Assembly: GCF_000382205.1 (NCBI RefSeq)
Contig: NZ_KB907789.1
Coordinates: 496,001 to 560,000 of the forward strand
DNA from: Dyadobacter beijingensis DSM 21582
GTDB taxonomy: Bacteria > Bacteroidota > Bacteroidia > Cytophagales > Spirosomataceae
Length of the DNA: 64,000 nt
Direction of reading: 5' to 3'
In this document: one piece after another, positions 10,899 through 60,824 of the stretch
How the letters are laid out: each line of letters starts with the position of its first letter
How positions within the stretch are numbered: the stretch's first letter is position 1
The notes under the pieces: model-generated
Seen by the model: the letters and a program-made list of their open reading frames with translations, nothing else
What the model was told of the DNA's origin: nothing
The model's database searches: none
Translations under genes and position numbers: made by a program

Positions 10899-12269
10899 TT
10901 AAGAAAACACGGAATACTTGAATGGCAGGAAGGTAATGAACTGCGTCCCTTCCTCCACGCGGCTGTGCACCTCCACCTTGCCCTGGTGCATGCGTATGAT
11001 GTTGTGCGTGAGAGGCAAACCAATCCCGTAGCCCTTGTACCGCGCCGTGTTGGAGGCCCGGAAAAACGGCACGAAAATCTGCCCGATCTCGCGATCGGGG
11101 ATACCGATACCCTGGTCGGCGACCTCCACGATCACGTATTTGGCGTCCGCGCTGATCCGCACGCGCACCGGCTTGTTGTCGGAGTATTTGCAGCTGTTGA
11201 GCACGATATTAGAAAAAGCCGCTTTCAGCAATGCGAGGTTACCCAGCACCACCAGTTTCGACTCATCGTCAGGCAGCTGGTCAAAATCGATTGTCACGTG
11301 GTTATCAGGCATAATGCGGTCTGCCGCTTCCTTCACGGACAAGATCAGCTCGTCGATCCGCACCTCTTCCCAGTTCTCTTTTTTACCATCGAATCCCGTT
11401 TGCGCGAGGCTGAGCATACTGGTAGTGAGGTGTTCCAGCTTTTCTACCTCCTTGTAGATATTGAGAAACGACTCTTTCGCCCCTTCCGGCAGCCCAGGCA
11501 TGGTCATCCCGAGTTCTGCCTCCCCGCTCACGACAGTCAGCGGCGTCCGGAATTCGTGTGAGGCATTGCTCACAAAGTTGTTTTGCATTTCAAATGTCAC
11601 TTCCAGGCGGTCGAGCATATCGTTGAAAGTCCTCGAAAGCGCCTCCACGTCGTCGTCGGTAGGTTCCACCACGAGCCGCTGGTGCAGGTTATGGGCGTTA
11701 ATTCCCTTCACATTGCGGATAATGCGGCGGATCGGTTTGAAGATTTCATTGGAAAACAGCTTGCCCAATGTAAACACGAACACCATCGCGATAATAAAAC
11801 CAATGATCAGCAGGTTTTTCAGGTTGGTCATTTCCTGCATGCCATATGTATCCAGCGCCGACGATACGACCATGATTTTGCGCTTGTCGCGCGCGATCCG
11901 CAACACCACATAGGAAGTGTCATGATTAAAAAACCGGGCAGGAATATCCCCCTGGGGCGCTTCGAAGAACGACGAAGGCAATGCCAGCCGCTTCCGCGTG
12001 GCCTCGTCGGTCGGGTCGGGCAGGATGCGGTGCTTCTCGTAAGGCAAACTGCCCAAATGCCGCTCCTTGATATCGTAATAAATGGAGGTCAGCGATTTGT
12101 TTTCCTGCAATCCCGCATGGCCTACAATGTCCGACCGGACTTCCAGGCGGTGGAAAAAGCCCGAGGAAATGCTTTCCGAGGCAAAAAAATACACGAAAAT
12201 GCTCAGCGCCAGGATAATCCCCGCCGACAATGCCGTGAAAATAAGCGCGATCTTATTTTGTATCCTCAT
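10899..12269 (-). CDS. membrane sensor histidine kinase (HAMP type)
   Basis: From the ATG at 12269 this is a 456-residue two-component sensor. It has one membrane span at residues ~8-30, a periplasmic sensing region of ~120 residues, and a second span near 150-172. A HAMP domain follows at ~173-228. The phosphorylation site SNASHEFRTPL has its histidine near 237. The ATPase has an N box (FSNIVLNSCKYSD), G1 (VADQGIGIPD) and G2 (GYGIGLPLTHN). It overlaps the 3' end of the response-regulator gene by about 17 bases, so the two are translationally coupled and act together. An upstream start at 12287 would lengthen the overlap. The stimulus is unknown. Confidence 0.92.
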   Translation of the reverse strand: MRIQNKIALIFTALSAGIILALSIFVYFFASESISSGFFHRLEVRSDIVGHAGLQENKSLTSIYYDIKERHLGSLPYEKHRILPDPTDEATRKRLALPSSFFEAPQGDIPARFFNHDTSYVVLRIARDKRKIMVVSSALDTYGMQEMTNLKNLLIIGFIIAMVFVFTLGKLFSNEIFKPIRRIIRNVKGINAHNLHQRLVVEPTDDDVEALSRTFNDMLDRLEVTFEMQNNFVSNASHEFRTPLTVVSGEAELGMTMPGLPEGAKESFLNIYKEVEKLEHLTTSMLSLAQTGFDGKKENWEEVRIDELILSVKEAADRIMPDNHVTIDFDQLPDDESKLVVLGNLALLKAAFSNIVLNSCKYSDNKPVRVRISADAKYVIVEVADQGIGIPDREIGQIFVPFFRASNTARYKGYGIGLPLTHNIIRMHQGKVEVHSRVEEGTQFITFLPFKYSVFS

Positions 12270-12951
12270 ACGACTGACGGACCACATACCCCATTCCGAA
12301 AACAGTGTGTATCAGCTTGATATCGTAATTTTTATCGATCTTTTTGCGGAGATAGTTAATGTACACGTCCACCACGTTGGTACCCAGGTTGAAGTTGATA
12401 TCCCACACATTTTCAAGGATTTCCATCCGGTTCAGCACGCGGTTGGTGTTGGATAGCAGGTATTCCAAAAGACGAAATTCGGTAGCCGTGAGCTCGATAG
12501 GCTGCCCCCCGCGTTTAACGGTCTTCGTAACTTTGTCGAGAATCAGGTCGCCGAGCGTAAGTACCTTATCGTTTTTCTCTTTTTCGGGCTCCTTGCCGCG
12601 GCGGATAAGCGACCGCAGCCGCGCCTCGAGTTCAGCGAGTTTGAAGGGCTTGGTCATGTAATCGTCCGCGCCCGCGTCGAGGCCGGAGACGATATTTTCC
12701 GTCGTGCCGAGGGCTGTAAGCATTAATATCGGCGTCGTCACCTGCGCATTCCGCGCGCGGCGGCAGACCTCCATCCCGTTGATGATCGGGATCATCAGGT
12801 CGAGGATAACCACGTCGAACTGGTGTTGCAAAACCATTTGCAAGCCCGACTGGCCGTCCATGGCGATCGTAATTTCGTGGCCGTTGGCGGCCAGGCTTCG
12901 CTGGATGAGGGATATGACATTCGGCTCATCTTCGATGAGCAGGATCTTCAT
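12253..12951 (-). CDS. OmpR/PhoB-family response regulator
   Basis: A 232-residue transcription regulator when started at the ATG at 12951 (MKILLIEDEPN); an ATG at 12972 would add seven residues. The receiver domain shows the acidic pair (EDE), the phospho-acceptor aspartate in VVILDLMIPI near residue 50, the conserved threonine (LTALG) and lysine (TKPF). The C-terminal winged helix (ELTATEFRLLEYLLSN, VVDVYINYLRKKID) binds DNA. It is the partner of the sensor kinase that overlaps its 3' end. It is divergent from the large outer-membrane-protein gene at 13114 across ~160 bases, so it might control that gene as well as its own operon; this is inference. Confidence 0.93.
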   Translation of the reverse strand: MKILLIEDEPNVISLIQRSLAANGHEITIAMDGQSGLQMVLQHQFDVVILDLMIPIINGMEVCRRARNAQVTTPILMLTALGTTENIVSGLDAGADDYMTKPFKLAELEARLRSLIRRGKEPEKEKNDKVLTLGDLILDKVTKTVKRGGQPIELTATEFRLLEYLLSNTNRVLNRMEILENVWDINFNLGTNVVDVYINYLRKKIDKNYDIKLIHTVFGMGYVVRQSYEDTK

Positions 12952-13113
12952 GGGTAGCTTGGAAAATGGCATTGCAATCTCTTTTTGATCCTGTAAGGTA
13001 TAAAAAAACCGGTTGGCAATATATTTTTCCAACATTTACGTTGGTTCCTCCATTCCAACGGGCGCGCATAACTGCTAAATTGTAAATGTTTTTACACGCA
13101 ACGTCCCGAAACC

Positions 13114-16100
13114 TTGGATACACTTCTACCTGGTACCCCTAACGACCTCAAAATCCGCGTCCAACGCATTGTCGCATCGCTCATATTGCTGCTGACAGCC
13201 GCTTGCAGCATGTACGCCGCCGATTTCAAGGTCATCCTCACCGGCAACACGGCAGACCTCGAAAATGCGGCCGAAATTTTCCCCGTGATCGAAAACTACC
13301 TCGCCTCCAAACCCGGCCCGCTGCTCTGGGTTTTCAATGGTGACGCTTTTCCTGCGCATATGTCCGTTGAGCAAGTGGCCGACTGGAAAAGGAAAGCCAA
13401 TGCATTGCTCGACCAAAATCCAGACCTGCACATGCTCATGAACCAGGGCGACCGCGAATGGCACGACTCGGGTAAGGATGGCTGGAAGCGCGTACTGGCT
13501 TTGGAGAAAGCATTGGAGCAGGAAAAACACCCGCGATTCCAGCTATTTTTCAGCCACGGCTGCCCCGGCCCGTGGACGGTTTCTTTCCCCATGCTGGAAG
13601 TTGTCGTGATCAACTCGCAATGGTGGAACCACCCTTATGATAAGCCTAAACCGTCGTCCGATGCCTGTACCATTGCCGATACGGACAATTTCATGGAAGA
13701 ACTCGAAGGCATTCTCGACGAGACCACCGATAAAAACGTGCTGCTGCTCTCCCATTTCCCCATCGAATCACTTGGCAAGTATGGCGGCCGCTTCCCGGCA
13801 GGCGCTTACCTGGCCCCGCCGCTCGTGGGCAGCGCCATTGTCGGTTACCGGCAGAATATCGGTACCAGCCTCGACATTGTGAATGCCAATCTGGGGCTTT
13901 TCCGGTATAAACTGAATGGCGTTTTGCAAGATTACGGGTCGATGATCCTCGCCTCCGCCCACGAGCGCAACCAGTCGATCGTCCGCCGGGACAACAACTA
14001 TTTCATCAACAGCGGCAGCATCGGCGGCGGCAGCTACGTCGCTCACAGCAAAAAAGCCTCATTAGCCTCATCATCAACGGGTTTAATTGAAATAACATAC
14101 TCCCAAAACGGTGGGATCCGCTACCAGCAATGGGATGTTTCGGGAAAAGAACTTACCAAAACCAGGGCCGGCCAGCTGTTCGCATCCGCCTGCGAAACCG
14201 GGGCAGATGGGCTTACCAATGCGCTTTTCCAGCCCTGTAATCCGTCAGTCAAGCCGTCCGACAAGATGGAAACGCCCCACCCTGGCCTTGCCACCGTGGC
14301 GGCCGGAAGCGAGTATGCGAGCAAGCGGTTCAAGGAAACCTGGTTCGGAAAGCATTACCGCGACTCTTGGACCATACCCGTGAAAGTGCCTTACCTGAAT
14401 TTGGACACTACATTCAACGGTCTCGTCATTGCCGGCAAAGGAGGCGGGCGGCAAACGACTTCGCTCAAACTCGTGGCGGGCAATGGCAAGGAATATGTGT
14501 TCCGTTCGGTGGACAAGGACCCATTCCGCGCGCTGGCGTACGAGCTGCGCGGGACGGTGGTTTCGCAGGTATTGAAAGACCAAACGTCTACACAGCAGCC
14601 GTACGGCGCCATGGCCGTAGCCCCGCTGCTCGACAAGATCGGCATTCTCCACGCCACGCCTGCGCTTTATGTTTTACCCAAAGACAATAAACTGGGCGCA
14701 TTCCGGGACAAGTACGGTAACCTTTTCGGGATGCTCGAAGAACGCCCGACCGATAAACTGGAAAAGGGAAAGGTGTTCGCCGGCGCCAAAGACATCGAAA
14801 AAAGCTTCAAACTTTTTAACAAACTCTACCACGACCATGATAACCGGGTAGACAAGCCGGAATTCGCCCGCGCCCGGATGTTCGACCTCTGGATCGGCGA
14901 TTGGAGCAAGCACGAAGACAACTGGAAATGGGCAGGCTTCAAAACCGGTGACGGCGAGGTGTACCGCCCCATCCCCCGCGACCGCGACCACGCATTCTCG
15001 CGCTGGGACGGCATTATCCCCTGGCTTGCCGACCGCGAATGGGGCGTACCCAACGGCGAAAACTTCGGGGAACGCATTCACGGCCTCCGTAGCCTCATGT
15101 GGCAGGCCCGCCACCTCGACCGGTTCGTAGGCAGCGAGCTCACCAAAGCCGACTGGGTGAAAGCCGCCAAAGAGATCCAGGATGCGGTGACCGAAAGCGA
15201 TATTGCCGCGGCCGTGCACAATATGCCGCAGGAGATTTATGACAAAGACGGCCGGATCATCGAGCGGAAATTGAAAGCGCGTATCGGTGACCTGCAAAAA
15301 TATGCCGCTGAATATTATATGCTGCTGGCAAAAGAAGTGGACGTCGTCGGCTCCAATAAAGCGGAGTATTTCAAAGTCACGCGGGGGCCGGACGGACGGG
15401 TGACAGTGGGAATATATAATGTATCCAAACAAAACCGCCAGCCCGATTCCTCCAAAATTTACTATCAGCGTACATTCGACCCCTCCGACACGAAGGAAAT
15501 ACGGCTGAATGGCCTTGGCGGCGACGATGTATTCGATATCCAGGGCAAGGCGGAGCGCTCCATTCTTGTGCGCATCATCAGCGGCGGTGGCAACGACCGT
15601 GTGACCGACGGCTCCGAAGTGGCCAAAGGCGGCAGGCAAACGCTCATCTACGAAAAAGACCCGAACCCCGACCACCAGCTCGGCACGGAAGCCCGGGAAG
15701 TGAAGCCACTCGACGAGCGTTTTTATGAATACGACCGCAATGCATTCAAATACAACACCTACCTGCCCATCGCGCTTTTCACCTACAACCCGTTTATCGG
15801 TTTTGCCGTGCACGGCGGCGTTTCGTTTACACGCCAGCATTTCGGTAAGCCCGATTTCTCTTCGAAGCATTCGCTCAGCGCATCGGTCAGTGTGAAGGGT
15901 AATTATGATTTCACCTATTCCAACCAGTTCAGACATCTGGTGGGCAGATGGGACGGCATCTCGAAAATCAGCCTCTCTCGGCCGCTTGAATACAATTTCT
16001 TCTTCGGTGTCGGTAATGACACGCCCAAAAACAACGAGCTGCCTTCTAACTATTACCGGACGCAATACAACTCATTCCTGGTCTCGGCCGGGCTGCTCCG

Positions 16101-16797
16101 CCAGTTCTGGAAGCAAAGCAAAATCGAGGTGACTGCCACTTACGAGCTCGACGAAGGCATTAAGCGAAACAACAGCTACCTTGCTGACCATCCCGATGTT
16201 TTCGGCGTGGAGCACCTGCACCTGATCTTCGCCAAAGGCATCCTCAACCTCGATTTCCGGGACCGCATCGCATTGCCTGAACGCGGCTTCCGCTTCCAGC
16301 TCACACAGCAGGTGGGCCACGTCTCGCAATCCCGCAACGACCTCGCCTCCATTTCGGAGCTCGACATCGAGCAATATCTCTCGACCCACAGCAAAAACCC
16401 GCTTACGCTGGGCCTGCGCCTGGGAGGCGGCATTGCCAAAGGACAATTACCATTTTATAAGCTCTTCTCGCTCGGCCAGCTCAACGACCTGCGCGGTTTC
16501 AAGCGCAACCGCTTCACCGGTGAATCCAAAGGTTTCCTGAATACCGAGCTGAGATGGCAGCTCACGCAAACCCAAAACACATTCGTCCCACTCAAAATGG
16601 GCGTTCGGGCATTTTACGACGTAGGAAGAGTGTGGGCCAAAAACGACCCCGACGGCGCCGGATACTGGCACCAGGGCTACGGCGGCGGGTTCTATATTAC
16701 CCCATTCCGCGAACAATTCGCATTCAACATCAGCGCCGGCACCTCGAAGGAAGAGTCGCTGCTGCTAATGATTTCAATCGGAAGCTTTTTCAGGTAA
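13114..16797 (+). CDS. outer membrane protein: degenerate metallophosphoesterase, kinase-like middle domain and BamA-like barrel
   Basis: A 1227-residue exported protein. No ATG precedes the signal sequence (VASLILLLTAACSMYA), so the TTG at 13114 is the best start. Residues ~38-350 follow a calcineurin-like phosphoesterase pattern, but with motif changes: TGN where GD is usual, NGDAFP, GDREW in place of GNHDW, LSHFP, and SAHERN. Residues ~440-780 hold GGGRQTTSLKL, EYVFRSVDKDP, GMLEERP, IGDWSKHEDNWKW near 594 and PRDRDHAF near 622. Their order recalls the N-lobe, hinge, catalytic loop and metal site of atypical kinases such as HipA or FAM20C. The last ~320 residues form an Omp85/BamA-type beta-barrel ending in ISIGSFFR, with a terminal aromatic residue. 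Residues 37 and 1227 bound the mature protein. It stands alone and ends at a hairpin. Catalytic activity of either soluble domain is uncertain. Confidence 0.8.
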   Translation: MDTLLPGTPNDLKIRVQRIVASLILLLTAACSMYAADFKVILTGNTADLENAAEIFPVIENYLASKPGPLLWVFNGDAFPAHMSVEQVADWKRKANALLDQNPDLHMLMNQGDREWHDSGKDGWKRVLALEKALEQEKHPRFQLFFSHGCPGPWTVSFPMLEVVVINSQWWNHPYDKPKPSSDACTIADTDNFMEELEGILDETTDKNVLLLSHFPIESLGKYGGRFPAGAYLAPPLVGSAIVGYRQNIGTSLDIVNANLGLFRYKLNGVLQDYGSMILASAHERNQSIVRRDNNYFINSGSIGGGSYVAHSKKASLASSSTGLIEITYSQNGGIRYQQWDVSGKELTKTRAGQLFASACETGADGLTNALFQPCNPSVKPSDKMETPHPGLATVAAGSEYASKRFKETWFGKHYRDSWTIPVKVPYLNLDTTFNGLVIAGKGGGRQTTSLKLVAGNGKEYVFRSVDKDPFRALAYELRGTVVSQVLKDQTSTQQPYGAMAVAPLLDKIGILHATPALYVLPKDNKLGAFRDKYGNLFGMLEERPTDKLEKGKVFAGAKDIEKSFKLFNKLYHDHDNRVDKPEFARARMFDLWIGDWSKHEDNWKWAGFKTGDGEVYRPIPRDRDHAFSRWDGIIPWLADREWGVPNGENFGERIHGLRSLMWQARHLDRFVGSELTKADWVKAAKEIQDAVTESDIAAAVHNMPQEIYDKDGRIIERKLKARIGDLQKYAAEYYMLLAKEVDVVGSNKAEYFKVTRGPDGRVTVGIYNVSKQNRQPDSSKIYYQRTFDPSDTKEIRLNGLGGDDVFDIQGKAERSILVRIISGGGNDRVTDGSEVAKGGRQTLIYEKDPNPDHQLGTEAREVKPLDERFYEYDRNAFKYNTYLPIALFTYNPFIGFAVHGGVSFTRQHFGKPDFSSKHSLSASVSVKGNYDFTYSNQFRHLVGRWDGISKISLSRPLEYNFFFGVGNDTPKNNELPSNYYRTQYNSFLVSAGLLRQFWKQSKIEVTATYELDEGIKRNNSYLADHPDVFGVEHLHLIFAKGILNLDFRDRIALPERGFRFQLTQQVGHVSQSRNDLASISELDIEQYLSTHSKNPLTLGLRLGGGIAKGQLPFYKLFSLGQLNDLRGFKRNRFTGESKGFLNTELRWQLTQTQNTFVPLKMGVRAFYDVGRVWAKNDPDGAGYWHQGYGGGFYITPFREQFAFNISAGTSKEESLLLMISIGSFFR

Positions 16798-58582: not shown

Positions 58583-60682
58583 TTATATTTCTGAACGTCG
58601 CGACAGTCCGTTGCGCTCGATTTTCTCCACCAGCCGGTAGTTTGCCTCCTGGGCGCGCACCTTCCCGCGCGAGTCGTCCGGGATGCGCAGATTGTTCTGA
58701 TAAAGGTCCAGCCGCACCGATTTCTGGTTGTCATTCACGTAATTCCGCAGCACCGTGCGCATCTGGTTTTTCAGTGTTTCGTCCAGAATAGGGAAGCAAA
58801 CGTCGATCCGCCGGTGCAGGTTCCGGTGCGTCCAGTCGCAGGAAGTGAGGTAAATCTCGTCGTTACCGCGGTTTCCGAAATGGAATATCCGCGTGTTTTC
58901 GATGTACCGGTCCACATGCCTGCTCACGACGATATTATCGCTGATCGACGGCAGGCCGGAGATCAAGCCGCAGCTCTCGCTCACGATCACATGTACGGGC
59001 ACGCCTGCCTGGCCGGCCTGGTACAATTTGTCGATCAGGATATGGTCCTGCAACTGGTTGATTTTAATTGTGATAAATGATTTCAAACCTGCATTGCAAT
59101 TGGCGATTTCCCGGTCCATAAGGTCGAGCAGCCGCTTTTGCAGGTTAAACTGTGTCACATATAAGTTATTGAAAGGCAAATATTTATATTTTTTCGGCTC
59201 GTCCTGCGTGGAAAGGTAGCCGAAGAGCAATTCCAGCTCGTTGGTTAGCTCGCGGTGCGAGGTCAGCAATGCGTGATCCACGATTTCGCGGCTCGTAAGC
59301 CGGTAAAAGCCGCCCGTTCCCAGGAATGCGTACCGCTCCCAGCCCTTTTGCACCTTGCGCTTCACCAATGCCATTTTCGCATGCACTTTGAGCCCCGGTA
59401 CGCTCAACAGTATTTTCACGCCCGCATCCCGCATCTTCTTCGACCATTGCAGGTTCTCCTGAATATCCAGCTTGGTGTTCAGCTCCACGTAGGTAGTCAC
59501 ACGCTTGCCGTTTTTGGAAGCACTGATCAACGAGTTGAGAATAAAAGAATTAGGGCTTATTTTATACAACGAAACGTGGATCTCCCGCACATGCGGGTCC
59601 ACGGCGGCCTCATTGAAAAACCGTACGATAGGTTCGTACGACTGATAAGGCAAATGCAGCATCTGGTCGCCCTGCTGGATCGACTCGAAAACGGATTCCG
59701 TATCGTCGAACTCCGGGTTCTGGACGGGGCGCTGGTGGGGATAATCGAGCCGTCGCGACAGTGCCGGGAACTTTGCCAGGTCCTGCATGAACAGGTATTC
59801 TCCCCGTTCGTGGAAATCGTGCATGGGTGCCGCCACTTTGCTCACGAGGTATTCCCGAAAGTACAGCGGCATACCCGATTCATAAAAATATTGCGAGGGC
59901 TGCACAAAATTGCGCTTTTCGAGCTGTTTGAGAATGCGCTGCGCCACCTGCATCGGGTATTCGTCTTCAATGGACAGCTCCGTCTCGCGCTCCACGCGTA
60001 AGGCGTAGCTTTCGAGGATCTGGTAACCCGGGAAAAGTACCGGCAGGTTTTCGCGGATCACATCTTCCATCAAGGCCACGTGCCGCCTTCCCTCCCACTC
60101 AGGCAGTTCCAGAAACCGGCCATGAGGCTCCGCTGGCACATTCACCGACGCATACCAGTCCTCTTCCGCGTCCTGCCGGTGCTGCATGCGTACGATCAGG
60201 TATAATTGTTTGGATTCGAATGCAGGCGTTTTCAGCGAACGCCGGCTGTCTAGAAAAACCGGTTGCAGGTAGCGAAAAAGGTGATCGATAAAAAAGCGCC
60301 GGGCAAATGCGGCATGCTCGGGCACGAATGCCTCGCGGTAGTAAAAATGCACGCCCTGTTCAAGCAATGCGGGCAGAATGCGGGTGGCAAGAATGTCGTT
60401 GAATTCACGAAGCTGGTTTTCAGCCGTTTCGTACACGTGTTCAAGCAGCGACTCGGGGAAAATGTTCAGCTTCGAGCGGATATCGTTGCTTACCTCGCCC
60501 ATCGCCAGCAGGTTCGGGATACGCACGCGGTAGAACTCCTCCGTTTGATAGGCATATATTCCCAAAAACCGTAAACGTTCCCTTACCGGTACCGTTTCGT
60601 CGTTTGCTTCCAGCAACAACCTGTAATTATTCGAAAGCCAGCTAAGATTGGTATCAAAATAAGGATAGGAAACGTCGATCAT
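58583..60682 (-). CDS. ppk1: polyphosphate kinase 1
   Basis: From the ATG at 60682 (MIDVSYPYFDTNLSWLSNNY) the protein has 699 residues, the usual PPK1 length. The N domain opens with the RELSWL-like start. The head domain includes FPGYQILESYALRVERETEL. The two phospholipase-D-like domains hold the expected His motifs: GLKVHAKMALVKRK, and the region FGNRGNDEIYLTSCDWTHRN. PPK1 polymerises the terminal phosphate of ATP into polyphosphate at the membrane. The gene stands alone and is divergent from an aldo/keto reductase across ~140 bases. It has no ppx neighbour. Confidence 0.95.
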   Translation of the reverse strand: MIDVSYPYFDTNLSWLSNNYRLLLEANDETVPVRERLRFLGIYAYQTEEFYRVRIPNLLAMGEVSNDIRSKLNIFPESLLEHVYETAENQLREFNDILATRILPALLEQGVHFYYREAFVPEHAAFARRFFIDHLFRYLQPVFLDSRRSLKTPAFESKQLYLIVRMQHRQDAEEDWYASVNVPAEPHGRFLELPEWEGRRHVALMEDVIRENLPVLFPGYQILESYALRVERETELSIEDEYPMQVAQRILKQLEKRNFVQPSQYFYESGMPLYFREYLVSKVAAPMHDFHERGEYLFMQDLAKFPALSRRLDYPHQRPVQNPEFDDTESVFESIQQGDQMLHLPYQSYEPIVRFFNEAAVDPHVREIHVSLYKISPNSFILNSLISASKNGKRVTTYVELNTKLDIQENLQWSKKMRDAGVKILLSVPGLKVHAKMALVKRKVQKGWERYAFLGTGGFYRLTSREIVDHALLTSHRELTNELELLFGYLSTQDEPKKYKYLPFNNLYVTQFNLQKRLLDLMDREIANCNAGLKSFITIKINQLQDHILIDKLYQAGQAGVPVHVIVSESCGLISGLPSISDNIVVSRHVDRYIENTRIFHFGNRGNDEIYLTSCDWTHRNLHRRIDVCFPILDETLKNQMRTVLRNYVNDNQKSVRLDLYQNNLRIPDDSRGKVRAQEANYRLVEKIERNGLSRRSEI

Positions 60683-60744
60683 TGAGTGTGGTGTAAAAGA
60701 TCCAAAATTTGTTACAATATAAATACATTTGGCGGGTAAGGATA

Positions 60745-60752
60745 TAACTTTG
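60745..60752 (+). promoter_or_regulatory. candidate -7 element for the aldo/keto reductase gene
   Basis: TAACTTTG, followed by CAG, matches TAnnTTTG exactly and lies 73 bases before the ATG at 60825. A TTTG 13 bases upstream is too close to be a normal -33 element. Confidence 0.35.
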
Positions 60753-60824
60753 CAGGACAAAAATCAACCTGGACAGGTAAGTTTCATGGGCTATATCTTC
60801 ACTCAAAATAATCAGTAAATTACT

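Follow-up and report, generated by a model that had tools for sequence, protein, structure and literature searches.

The window analysed here is a stretch of 64,000 nucleotides from the soil bacterium Dyadobacter beijingensis DSM 21582 (contig NZ_KB907789.1, positions 496,001 to 560,000; genome of 7.4 Mb), and the gene in question lies at positions 13114-16797 of its forward strand. It encodes a predicted outer membrane protein in which a degenerate phosphoesterase-type domain and a domain with the predicted fold of the protein kinases precede an Omp85 barrel, and in which residues expected for catalysis are missing from both enzyme-type domains. The frame holds 1227 codons without an internal stop, and the nearest named relatives of the protein belong to Dyadobacter. 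The gene and its parts, all on the forward strand, are the following.

13114-16797 (+): whole gene, 1227 amino acids, read from a TTG start in a stop-to-stop open reading frame (ORF) from 13072; the start codon is uncertain
13147-13221 (+): signal-peptide-like hydrophobic segment, about residues 12-36, read from the sequence
13225-14184 (+): calcineurin-like or purple-acid-phosphatase-like domain with three of seven ligand letters left, from alignment, fold prediction and Foldseek
14281-15336 (+): kinase-fold domain, about residues 390-741 (borders approximate), without a Pfam match, from AlphaFold2 (AF2) and Foldseek
14440-14457 (+): GGGRQT, at the position of the glycine-rich loop between predicted strands, from alignment and model
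14503-14505 (+): R464, invariant, at the beta-3 lysine position, assigned by order and strand
14737-14748 (+): EERP, segment at the hinge position, with E542 invariant, from alignment and model
14896-14925 (+): GDWSKHEDNW, at the catalytic-loop position, with Ser598 (14905-14907) in place of the catalytic Asp
14974-14991 (+): PRDRDH, segment at the metal site (DFG position), with D623 and D625 invariant in 81 of 81 sequences
15337-15753 (+): beta-rich linker domain between kinase fold and barrel, from predicted models
15757-16779 (+): Omp85 beta-barrel of 16 strands, from Pfam, predicted model and fold search

The initial annotation of this DNA had described an outer membrane protein with a degenerate phosphoesterase, a kinase-like domain and a BamA-like barrel, and all three parts were recovered computationally. 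The full-length prediction (residues 31-1227, 71 sequences; mean predicted local distance difference test (pLDDT) 86.8, predicted template modelling score (pTM) 0.78) contains, in order, the phosphoesterase-type part, the kinase-like part, the linker rich in beta strands and a barrel of 16 strands, a count that omits two three-residue strands. The barrel, the sole part of the protein with a Pfam match (PF01103, E-value 2.7e-13, 50.6 bits against a cut-off of 24), is real by this match and the predicted strands, and NCBIfam barrel matches fall below their cut-offs. When the full-length model is searched with Foldseek, BamA and TamA come out on top, and the phosphoesterase-fold protein GAP50 (3tgh) follows at rank 15, with a template modelling score (TM-score) of 0.62 by target. 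No POTRA domain was detected in Pfam or NCBIfam scans of the window protein, where the kinase fold and the beta linker precede the barrel. In an alignment of 81 sequences, consisting of the window protein and 80 related loci (L025-L104), the linker gives a weak RTX-like match in two members (best E-value 0.024).

The motifs that had been named earlier are all present in the order given for them: GNTAD (residue 44), NGDAFP (75), QGDREW (111), SHFP (213) and SAHERN (281) in the phosphoesterase half, and GGGRQTTSLKL (443), EYVFRSVDKDP (with R464 and K468), LEERP (with E542), GDWSKHEDNW (595-604, with Ser598) and PRDRDH (621-626) in the middle domain. These motifs are not a product of chance, since D596, H600, W606, P621, D623 and D625 are invariant in all 81 sequences, as are R464, K468 and E542.

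By its predicted fold, the middle domain is a member of the protein-kinase-like superfamily. Resemblance to the N-lobe, hinge, catalytic loop and metal site of a kinase had been proposed from the motifs, with an unrelated predicted fold as the outcome that would speak against it. The AF2 model of the middle domain and linker (510 residues, 81 sequences; pLDDT 89.5, pTM 0.90) bears the proposal out. It begins with an N-lobe of three strands, with GGG (443-445; G443 and G444 invariant in the 81 sequences) between the first two, and continues with helices, a strand and a further strand that ends at EERP; then come helices and the loop with GDWSKHEDNW, after which two strands lead to PRDRD and more helices. 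Foldseek returned 12 chains from the PDB at E-values of 1e-3 or below, all of which are kinase-fold proteins: seven of CtkA, two of PI4K-II-alpha, and one each of the HipS-HipT complex (taken as HipT from its length), Rio2, and an entry titled as a bacterial kinase complex. The best match is CtkA (3akj; E-value 1.9e-6, TM-score 0.50 by target length), and others include PI4K-II-alpha (4hne, 1.0e-4) and HipT (8ezr, 5.1e-4). At the place assigned to the beta-3 lysine stands the invariant Arg464, for which the available text of a paper on other kinase families offers a precedent in Lani_1194 (PMC9758233). D623 and D625, in the position of the metal-binding Asp after the catalytic loop, are assigned their metal role by that position.

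At the level of Pfam families, the proposed likeness to HipA and FAM20C found no support. None of the kinase families of Pfam, PI3_PI4_kinase included, has a match in the window protein, and HipA_C (PF07804), CotH (PF08757) and Fam20C gave nothing at E-values up to 1. Among the 25 of 38 families listed for the middle domains of the 81 members, these three are absent and matches are scattered and weak, the best E-value being 0.0081 in one member. Profile alignments with hhalign are very weak both for HipA (E-value 0.012, probability 3.5, score 27.0) and for CotH (0.022, 2.2 and 26.9); both set Ser598 on the Asp regarded as the catalytic one. As controls, the beta linker scored 11.2 against HipA and 14.9 against CotH, and HipA against CotH scored 48.9 with a probability of 69.5. 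The scores of the domain are too weak to serve as evidence of kinship with either family, as true distant kin score much better than this. A sequence search of the PDB with the middle domain yielded nothing credible (eS7, E-value 1.8; YaaH, 0.13), and PI3_PI4_kinase, sought in 99 genomes of the phylum for profile building, matched in none.

The catalytic Asp of the kinase superfamily is replaced by Ser598 in the window protein, as the initial annotation had noticed. In the 81 sequences, this column holds Asp 66 times, Ser eight times, Gly six times and Leu once, so that the suggested alignment of the SKHEDN region finds relatives that mostly keep DRH, the usual reading being GDWDRH[ED]DQW...PRDRD. 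The PRDRD segment, whose absence near the loop would have told against the assignment, follows it by about 20 residues, past two predicted strands. Asp also occupies the position in 21 further rows from the same genome and family (L002, L004-L023). GDWSKHEDNW, on the other hand, is shared by all 13 orthologues from the genus (L106-L118), by L025 and L026, and by three Lewinella-type relatives (L027-L029). As the proteins of L025 and L026 are identical to those of L110 and L113, the Ser type is found in 13 Dyadobacter genomes beside that of the window. Sought as a strict DNA pattern in 395 genomes of the class, a sample with no other member of the genus, the Ser signature was recovered in one, the genome of the window itself.

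Residues other than Asp mark whole branches rather than isolated sequences. In a quick, unrooted tree of 93 kinase-domain rows, built with the trait columns removed and giving no direction of change (29 rows judged redundant without a threshold were left out, and one plasmid row was added), the four states require at least six changes; three changes between Asp and the other states are already required by branches with good support. In the branch of the window (support 98), 13 rows of Dyadobacter or Lewinella type have Ser, and a protein from a Hymenobacter plasmid has Gly. A Chitinophagaceae-type branch of eight (support 98) holds Gly, Leu and Ser at the catalytic position, and a Ser-type protein from Pontibacter (L082) falls apart from the branch of the window. 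The members of the Chitinophagaceae-type branch (L039, L040, L042, L043, L060, L085, L104 and L034) have no phosphoesterase domain in frame.

The phosphoesterase-type domain has also lost residues needed for its chemistry. Seven metal-ligand columns were assumed from the motif of the calcineurin-like metallophosphoesterases, and only three of the seven letters are kept in the window protein, in agreement with the earlier remark that the metal-binding motifs are largely lost or changed. The protein has no Metallophos match in Pfam at E-values up to 1, whereas a paralogue from the same genome (L002), 29% identical to it, exceeds the cut-off of this family (28.5 against 21.5 bits), has intact phosphoesterase motifs and reads GDWDRHDDQW and PRDRDQ in the kinase-like part. 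In an alignment of 121 rows, which includes near copies, all seven assumed ligand letters are kept in 59, no such domain is in frame in 30, and the set is incomplete in 32, including the truncated L069. Rows of the branch of the window that hold the domain retain two to four ligand letters each, and theirs is the only clade of the sample in which a degenerate phosphoesterase is retained next to a kinase loop lacking Asp. A degenerate phosphoesterase together with a kinase-loop Asp occurs in Rufibacter, Adhaeribacter, Marinifilaceae and others (L045, L055, L066, L068, L071, L079, L084, L089, L091 and L100).

Despite these losses, the gene is under purifying selection in all of its domains, and neutral decay is not compatible with the values obtained. 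Ratios of nonsynonymous to synonymous substitution (dN/dS) were computed over 14 distinct Dyadobacter sequences, from pairs with dS between 0 and 2 only; their medians, which are rough owing to the high dS and to the number of unusable pairs (more than half), are 0.075 for the phosphoesterase (36 of 78 pairs usable), 0.041 for the kinase fold (30 of 91), 0.070 for the linker (26 of 91) and 0.037 for the barrel (37 of 91), and the highest single value is 0.159. A frame of at least 1210 codons is open in 12 of the 13 orthologues.

Retained site residues, together with dN/dS far below 1 in every domain, point to a maintained double pseudoenzyme. The reading favoured here, with a little more than even confidence, is that such a protein binds a nucleotide or a phosphorylated ligand and in this way regulates an envelope partner or determines where it is localised. 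The barrel of 16 strands would anchor it in the outer membrane, leaving the purple-acid-phosphatase-like and kinase-fold domains probably in the periplasm. Both domains have lost residues of catalysis (metal ligands in one, Asp changed to Ser in the other) and kept their predicted folds, and the kinase fold, which retains the glycine loop, R464, E542 and the Asp residues of the metal site, is probably a periplasm-facing pseudokinase that binds a ligand and regulates or senses rather than catalyses. The partner might be a relative that has Asp, for instance the paralogue L002. Computation supplies the predicted fold, the lost residues, their fixation in the clade, the purifying selection and the coexistence with Asp-type relatives; we infer the periplasmic side, the ligand and the partnership from the retained site residues and from analogy with two known proteins, PlpD and Fam20A.

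PlpD is an Omp85 protein with a patatin-like domain that lies on the periplasmic side, according to the available text of PMC11116518, and it shares with the window protein the fusion of an enzyme-type domain to an Omp85 barrel. It differs in the nature of this domain, which is patatin-like instead of a phosphoesterase plus a kinase fold, and in having a POTRA domain (PMC4104836, available text). Fam20A is described in the accessible parts of PMC5413348 and PMC4421793 as an ATP-binding pseudokinase and an activator of Fam20C, so that the likeness lies in an extracytoplasmic pair of kinase folds, one active and one pseudo. This pair belongs to the eukaryotic secretory pathway, and the comparison is one of fold and role, not of sequence kinship; the Fam20C1-Fam20A complex appears at Foldseek rank 37 (E-value 0.016). 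Among the other known systems, CtkA and HipA/HipT are the best fold matches, with the catalytic loop in register in the very weak HipA profile alignment, and the window protein departs from them in lacking a HipA_C match and in carrying Ser instead of Asp; they are presumably not barrel-anchored envelope proteins. PI4K-II-alpha, a eukaryotic lipid kinase, has the kinase fold in common with the window protein, in which its PI3_PI4_kinase family finds no match. Plasmodium GAP50 resembles the N-terminal part in its phosphoesterase fold and is an anchor by its PDB title; it is eukaryotic and is not known to be catalytic or to have a kinase fold or a barrel.

The fusion of a phosphoesterase to an Omp85 barrel is already in print, since the Omp85 subfamily called "Metallo" by Heinz and Lithgow (2014; PMC4104836, available text) combines a PF00149 domain with the barrel, as does the Asp-type paralogue L002. 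Asp-type relatives and this subfamily are probably the same family, on grounds of architecture and not of compared sequences. The window protein differs from it, as its phosphoesterase domain is degenerate, has no PF00149 match at E-values up to 1 and is identified by predicted fold. The paper names PF00149 a metalloprotease, and its main text, as available, contains no word beginning with "kinase". No description of a kinase-like domain in Omp85 proteins, or of the HD/PycTM-type neighbourhood presented below, was found in the open-licence papers searched, and the available text of PMC12045153 and PMC12611786 mentions neither a phosphoesterase nor a kinase.

The Ser-type proteins coexist with Asp-type relatives. 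In all 11 genomes searched, covering 11 of the 14 Asp-less loci (L039, L040 and L043 were left out), an Asp-type relative is also present. In Pontibacter, five loci (L058, L062, L082, L092 and L101) carry tandem barrel-less kinase-like genes, one of Asp type and one of Ser type, separated by -16 to 47 bp, and the N-termini of their products look lipoprotein-like by eye. The arrangement recalls the Fam20C/Fam20A pair. When 422 neighbour ORFs were searched by motif, no kinase-like neighbours came up other than those of these five pairs, every one of which is Asp-type/Ser-type; the barrel-less L077 has none.

Asp-type and Asp-less loci differ in what surrounds them. Neighbours were called by a longest-ORF rule over at most 5 kb of flanking sequence, or less where the contig ended, with means of 5.2 per locus for the Asp type and 5.5 for the others. 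A gene for an HD/PycTM protein lies within three genes of 39 of the 66 Asp-type loci and of none of the 14 Asp-less loci (Fisher p 3e-5, a value that, like those below, ignores kinship among loci; the support is strong for HD/PycTM only). Pfam finds PycTM in 39 and HD in 33 of the 42 proteins of this cluster, and the 39 loci span five named orders, two phyla and several orientations. An SdiA-regulated propeller accompanies 19 of 66 against 0 of 14 (p 0.03) and a polyphosphate kinase 13 of 66 against 0 of 14 (p 0.11), nine of these 13 loci belonging to one family; Pfam confirms the respective domains in 19 of 19 and 13 of 13 proteins. Clusters typed by one representative each include DUF6268 (12 of 66, p 0.11), DUF2652 (10 of 66, p 0.20) and a nucleotide-cyclase type (9 of 66, p 0.35). 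The Asp-type paralogue L002 is part of an apparent five-gene operon (L171:950-11418, about 920949-931417 of contig C1), consisting of a GAF protein (match at the cut-off), an HD-PycTM protein, a polyphosphate kinase, an SdiA-regulated propeller and the phosphoesterase-kinase-barrel protein. No second PycTM gene was found in the genome, and the polyphosphate kinase of the operon is one of three; another lies in the window (58586-60763, reverse strand), about 42 kb from the kinase-like gene.

Several points weigh against a ligand-binding double pseudoenzyme with an envelope partner. The TM-scores of the 12 chains are moderate (0.38-0.54 by target), and the match is therefore one at superfamily level; in profile, the domain resembles HipA and CotH very weakly next to the probability of 69.5 between those two. 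The periplasmic placement would follow by analogy. Catalysis could be taken over by the invariant D596, some kinases lacking the usual residues are active (PMC5413348, available text), and Fam20A itself keeps the catalytic Asp and lacks another residue (PMC4421793, available text). Some family member is present in 47 of the 48 genomes of the genus, so that coexistence is weak evidence, compatible with a partnership. The tandem pairs are barrel-less and their one Ser-type protein on the tree (L082) lies outside the branch of the window, which leaves the partnership to analogy, and no neighbour accompanies the Ser-type gene throughout. The frame of one orthologue (L118/L206, genome G081) is split, the phosphoesterase part lying in a separate overlapping ORF, and genome G095 has two extra partial copies (contigs C21 and C14; 77% and 74% identical).

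Among the alternatives, it is possible, though unlikely, that the protein is an active atypical kinase or transferase that employs another residue, such as D596, or a different chemistry. Invariance of D596, H600, D623 and D625 in all 81 sequences would suit such an enzyme, as would a kinase fold about as constrained as the barrel (median dN/dS of 0.041 and 0.037) and the fact that non-Asp residues mark whole branches, suggesting that Asp may be dispensable. Against it, 66 of the 81 sequences do keep Asp, and the HD/PycTM gene is missing from all 14 Asp-less loci while present at 39 of the 66 Asp-type ones, as expected if the original activity was lost. It is similarly doubtful that both folds serve as a structural platform, that is, a ligand-free periplasmic scaffold serving an Omp85 barrel in the assembly or translocation of a substrate. 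The barrel does have the lowest median dN/dS, GAP50 as the first phosphoesterase-fold match carries the title of an anchor, and periplasmic domains are usual on Omp85 barrels; the invariance at nucleotide-site positions, however, exceeds the needs of a scaffold.

A further proposal concerns the genes upstream of the kinase-like gene, which are read in the opposite direction:

10899-12287 (-): sensor histidine kinase (HAMP, HisKA, HATPase_c), neighbour
12253-13035 (-): response regulator, divergent neighbour, function read from the sequence

The protein could be a sensor coupled to this two-component system, with its gene in the regulon of the pair. The divergent system noted earlier is real in the window, but it is not a constant neighbour. 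Neighbourhoods were compared for ten Dyadobacter loci (seven of the 13 genus orthologues, L025, L026 and the window), and the pair is adjacent and divergent in six of them (window, L025, L026, L201, L202 and L207); no match was found beside L203-L206 or the three Lewinella-type loci L027-L029, which carry the same GDWSKHEDNW motif. Such a sensor is very improbable, and the system was set aside as a partner. Beyond the pair, the window holds a small protein without a Pfam match and a bestrophin. Around L203-L206, L027-L029 and L169, L203 and L204 share a neighbourhood, and otherwise only a receptor-type gene (L029, L203 and L204) and an efflux-transporter gene (L169 and L206) recur. Finally, a decaying pseudogene of an active paralogue family, suggested by the many catalytic residues lost in two domains, the split orthologue (L118/L206) and the partial copies in G095, is barely credible given a frame of at least 1210 codons open in 12 of 13 orthologues and median dN/dS of 0.037-0.075 in four domains, rough as these are with high dS and over half of the pairs unusable.

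A wider and quite tentative idea is that many Bacteroidota possess an undescribed family of envelope kinases, functionally tied to polyphosphate kinase and an HD/PycTM protein and regulated by Ser-type pseudokinases such as the window protein, as a counterpart of Fam20C and Fam20A. Such kinases would often be fused to a phosphatase and an outer-membrane barrel. The periplasm is thought to lack ATP, and the donor would possibly be polyphosphate or an exported nucleotide. If the domain proves to be a kinase, a large bacterial phylum would offer a setting in which to test for phosphorylation in the outer envelope, and the natural contrast between Asp and Ser types, tandem pairs included, lets presumably active forms be compared with pseudo forms directly.

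Relatives whose active sites are intact occur commonly in the phylum and suggest an undescribed kinase-like family of the outer envelope. Sampling of 296 Bacteroidota genomes recovered the kinase-like domain in 112 of them, representing 62 of 140 genera, and it also occurs in records of Chlorobiota and Rhodothermota and on five plasmids. A near-DNA search of plasmids found nothing. Four of the five plasmid members are annotated as hypothetical proteins and the fifth is without annotation. The plasmid member from Hymenobacter radiodurans (L169:4804-8562), which is 47% identical to the window protein over the kinase-like part and reads ADFGKHEDNW, adjoins a gene for an undecaprenyl-diphosphate phosphatase.

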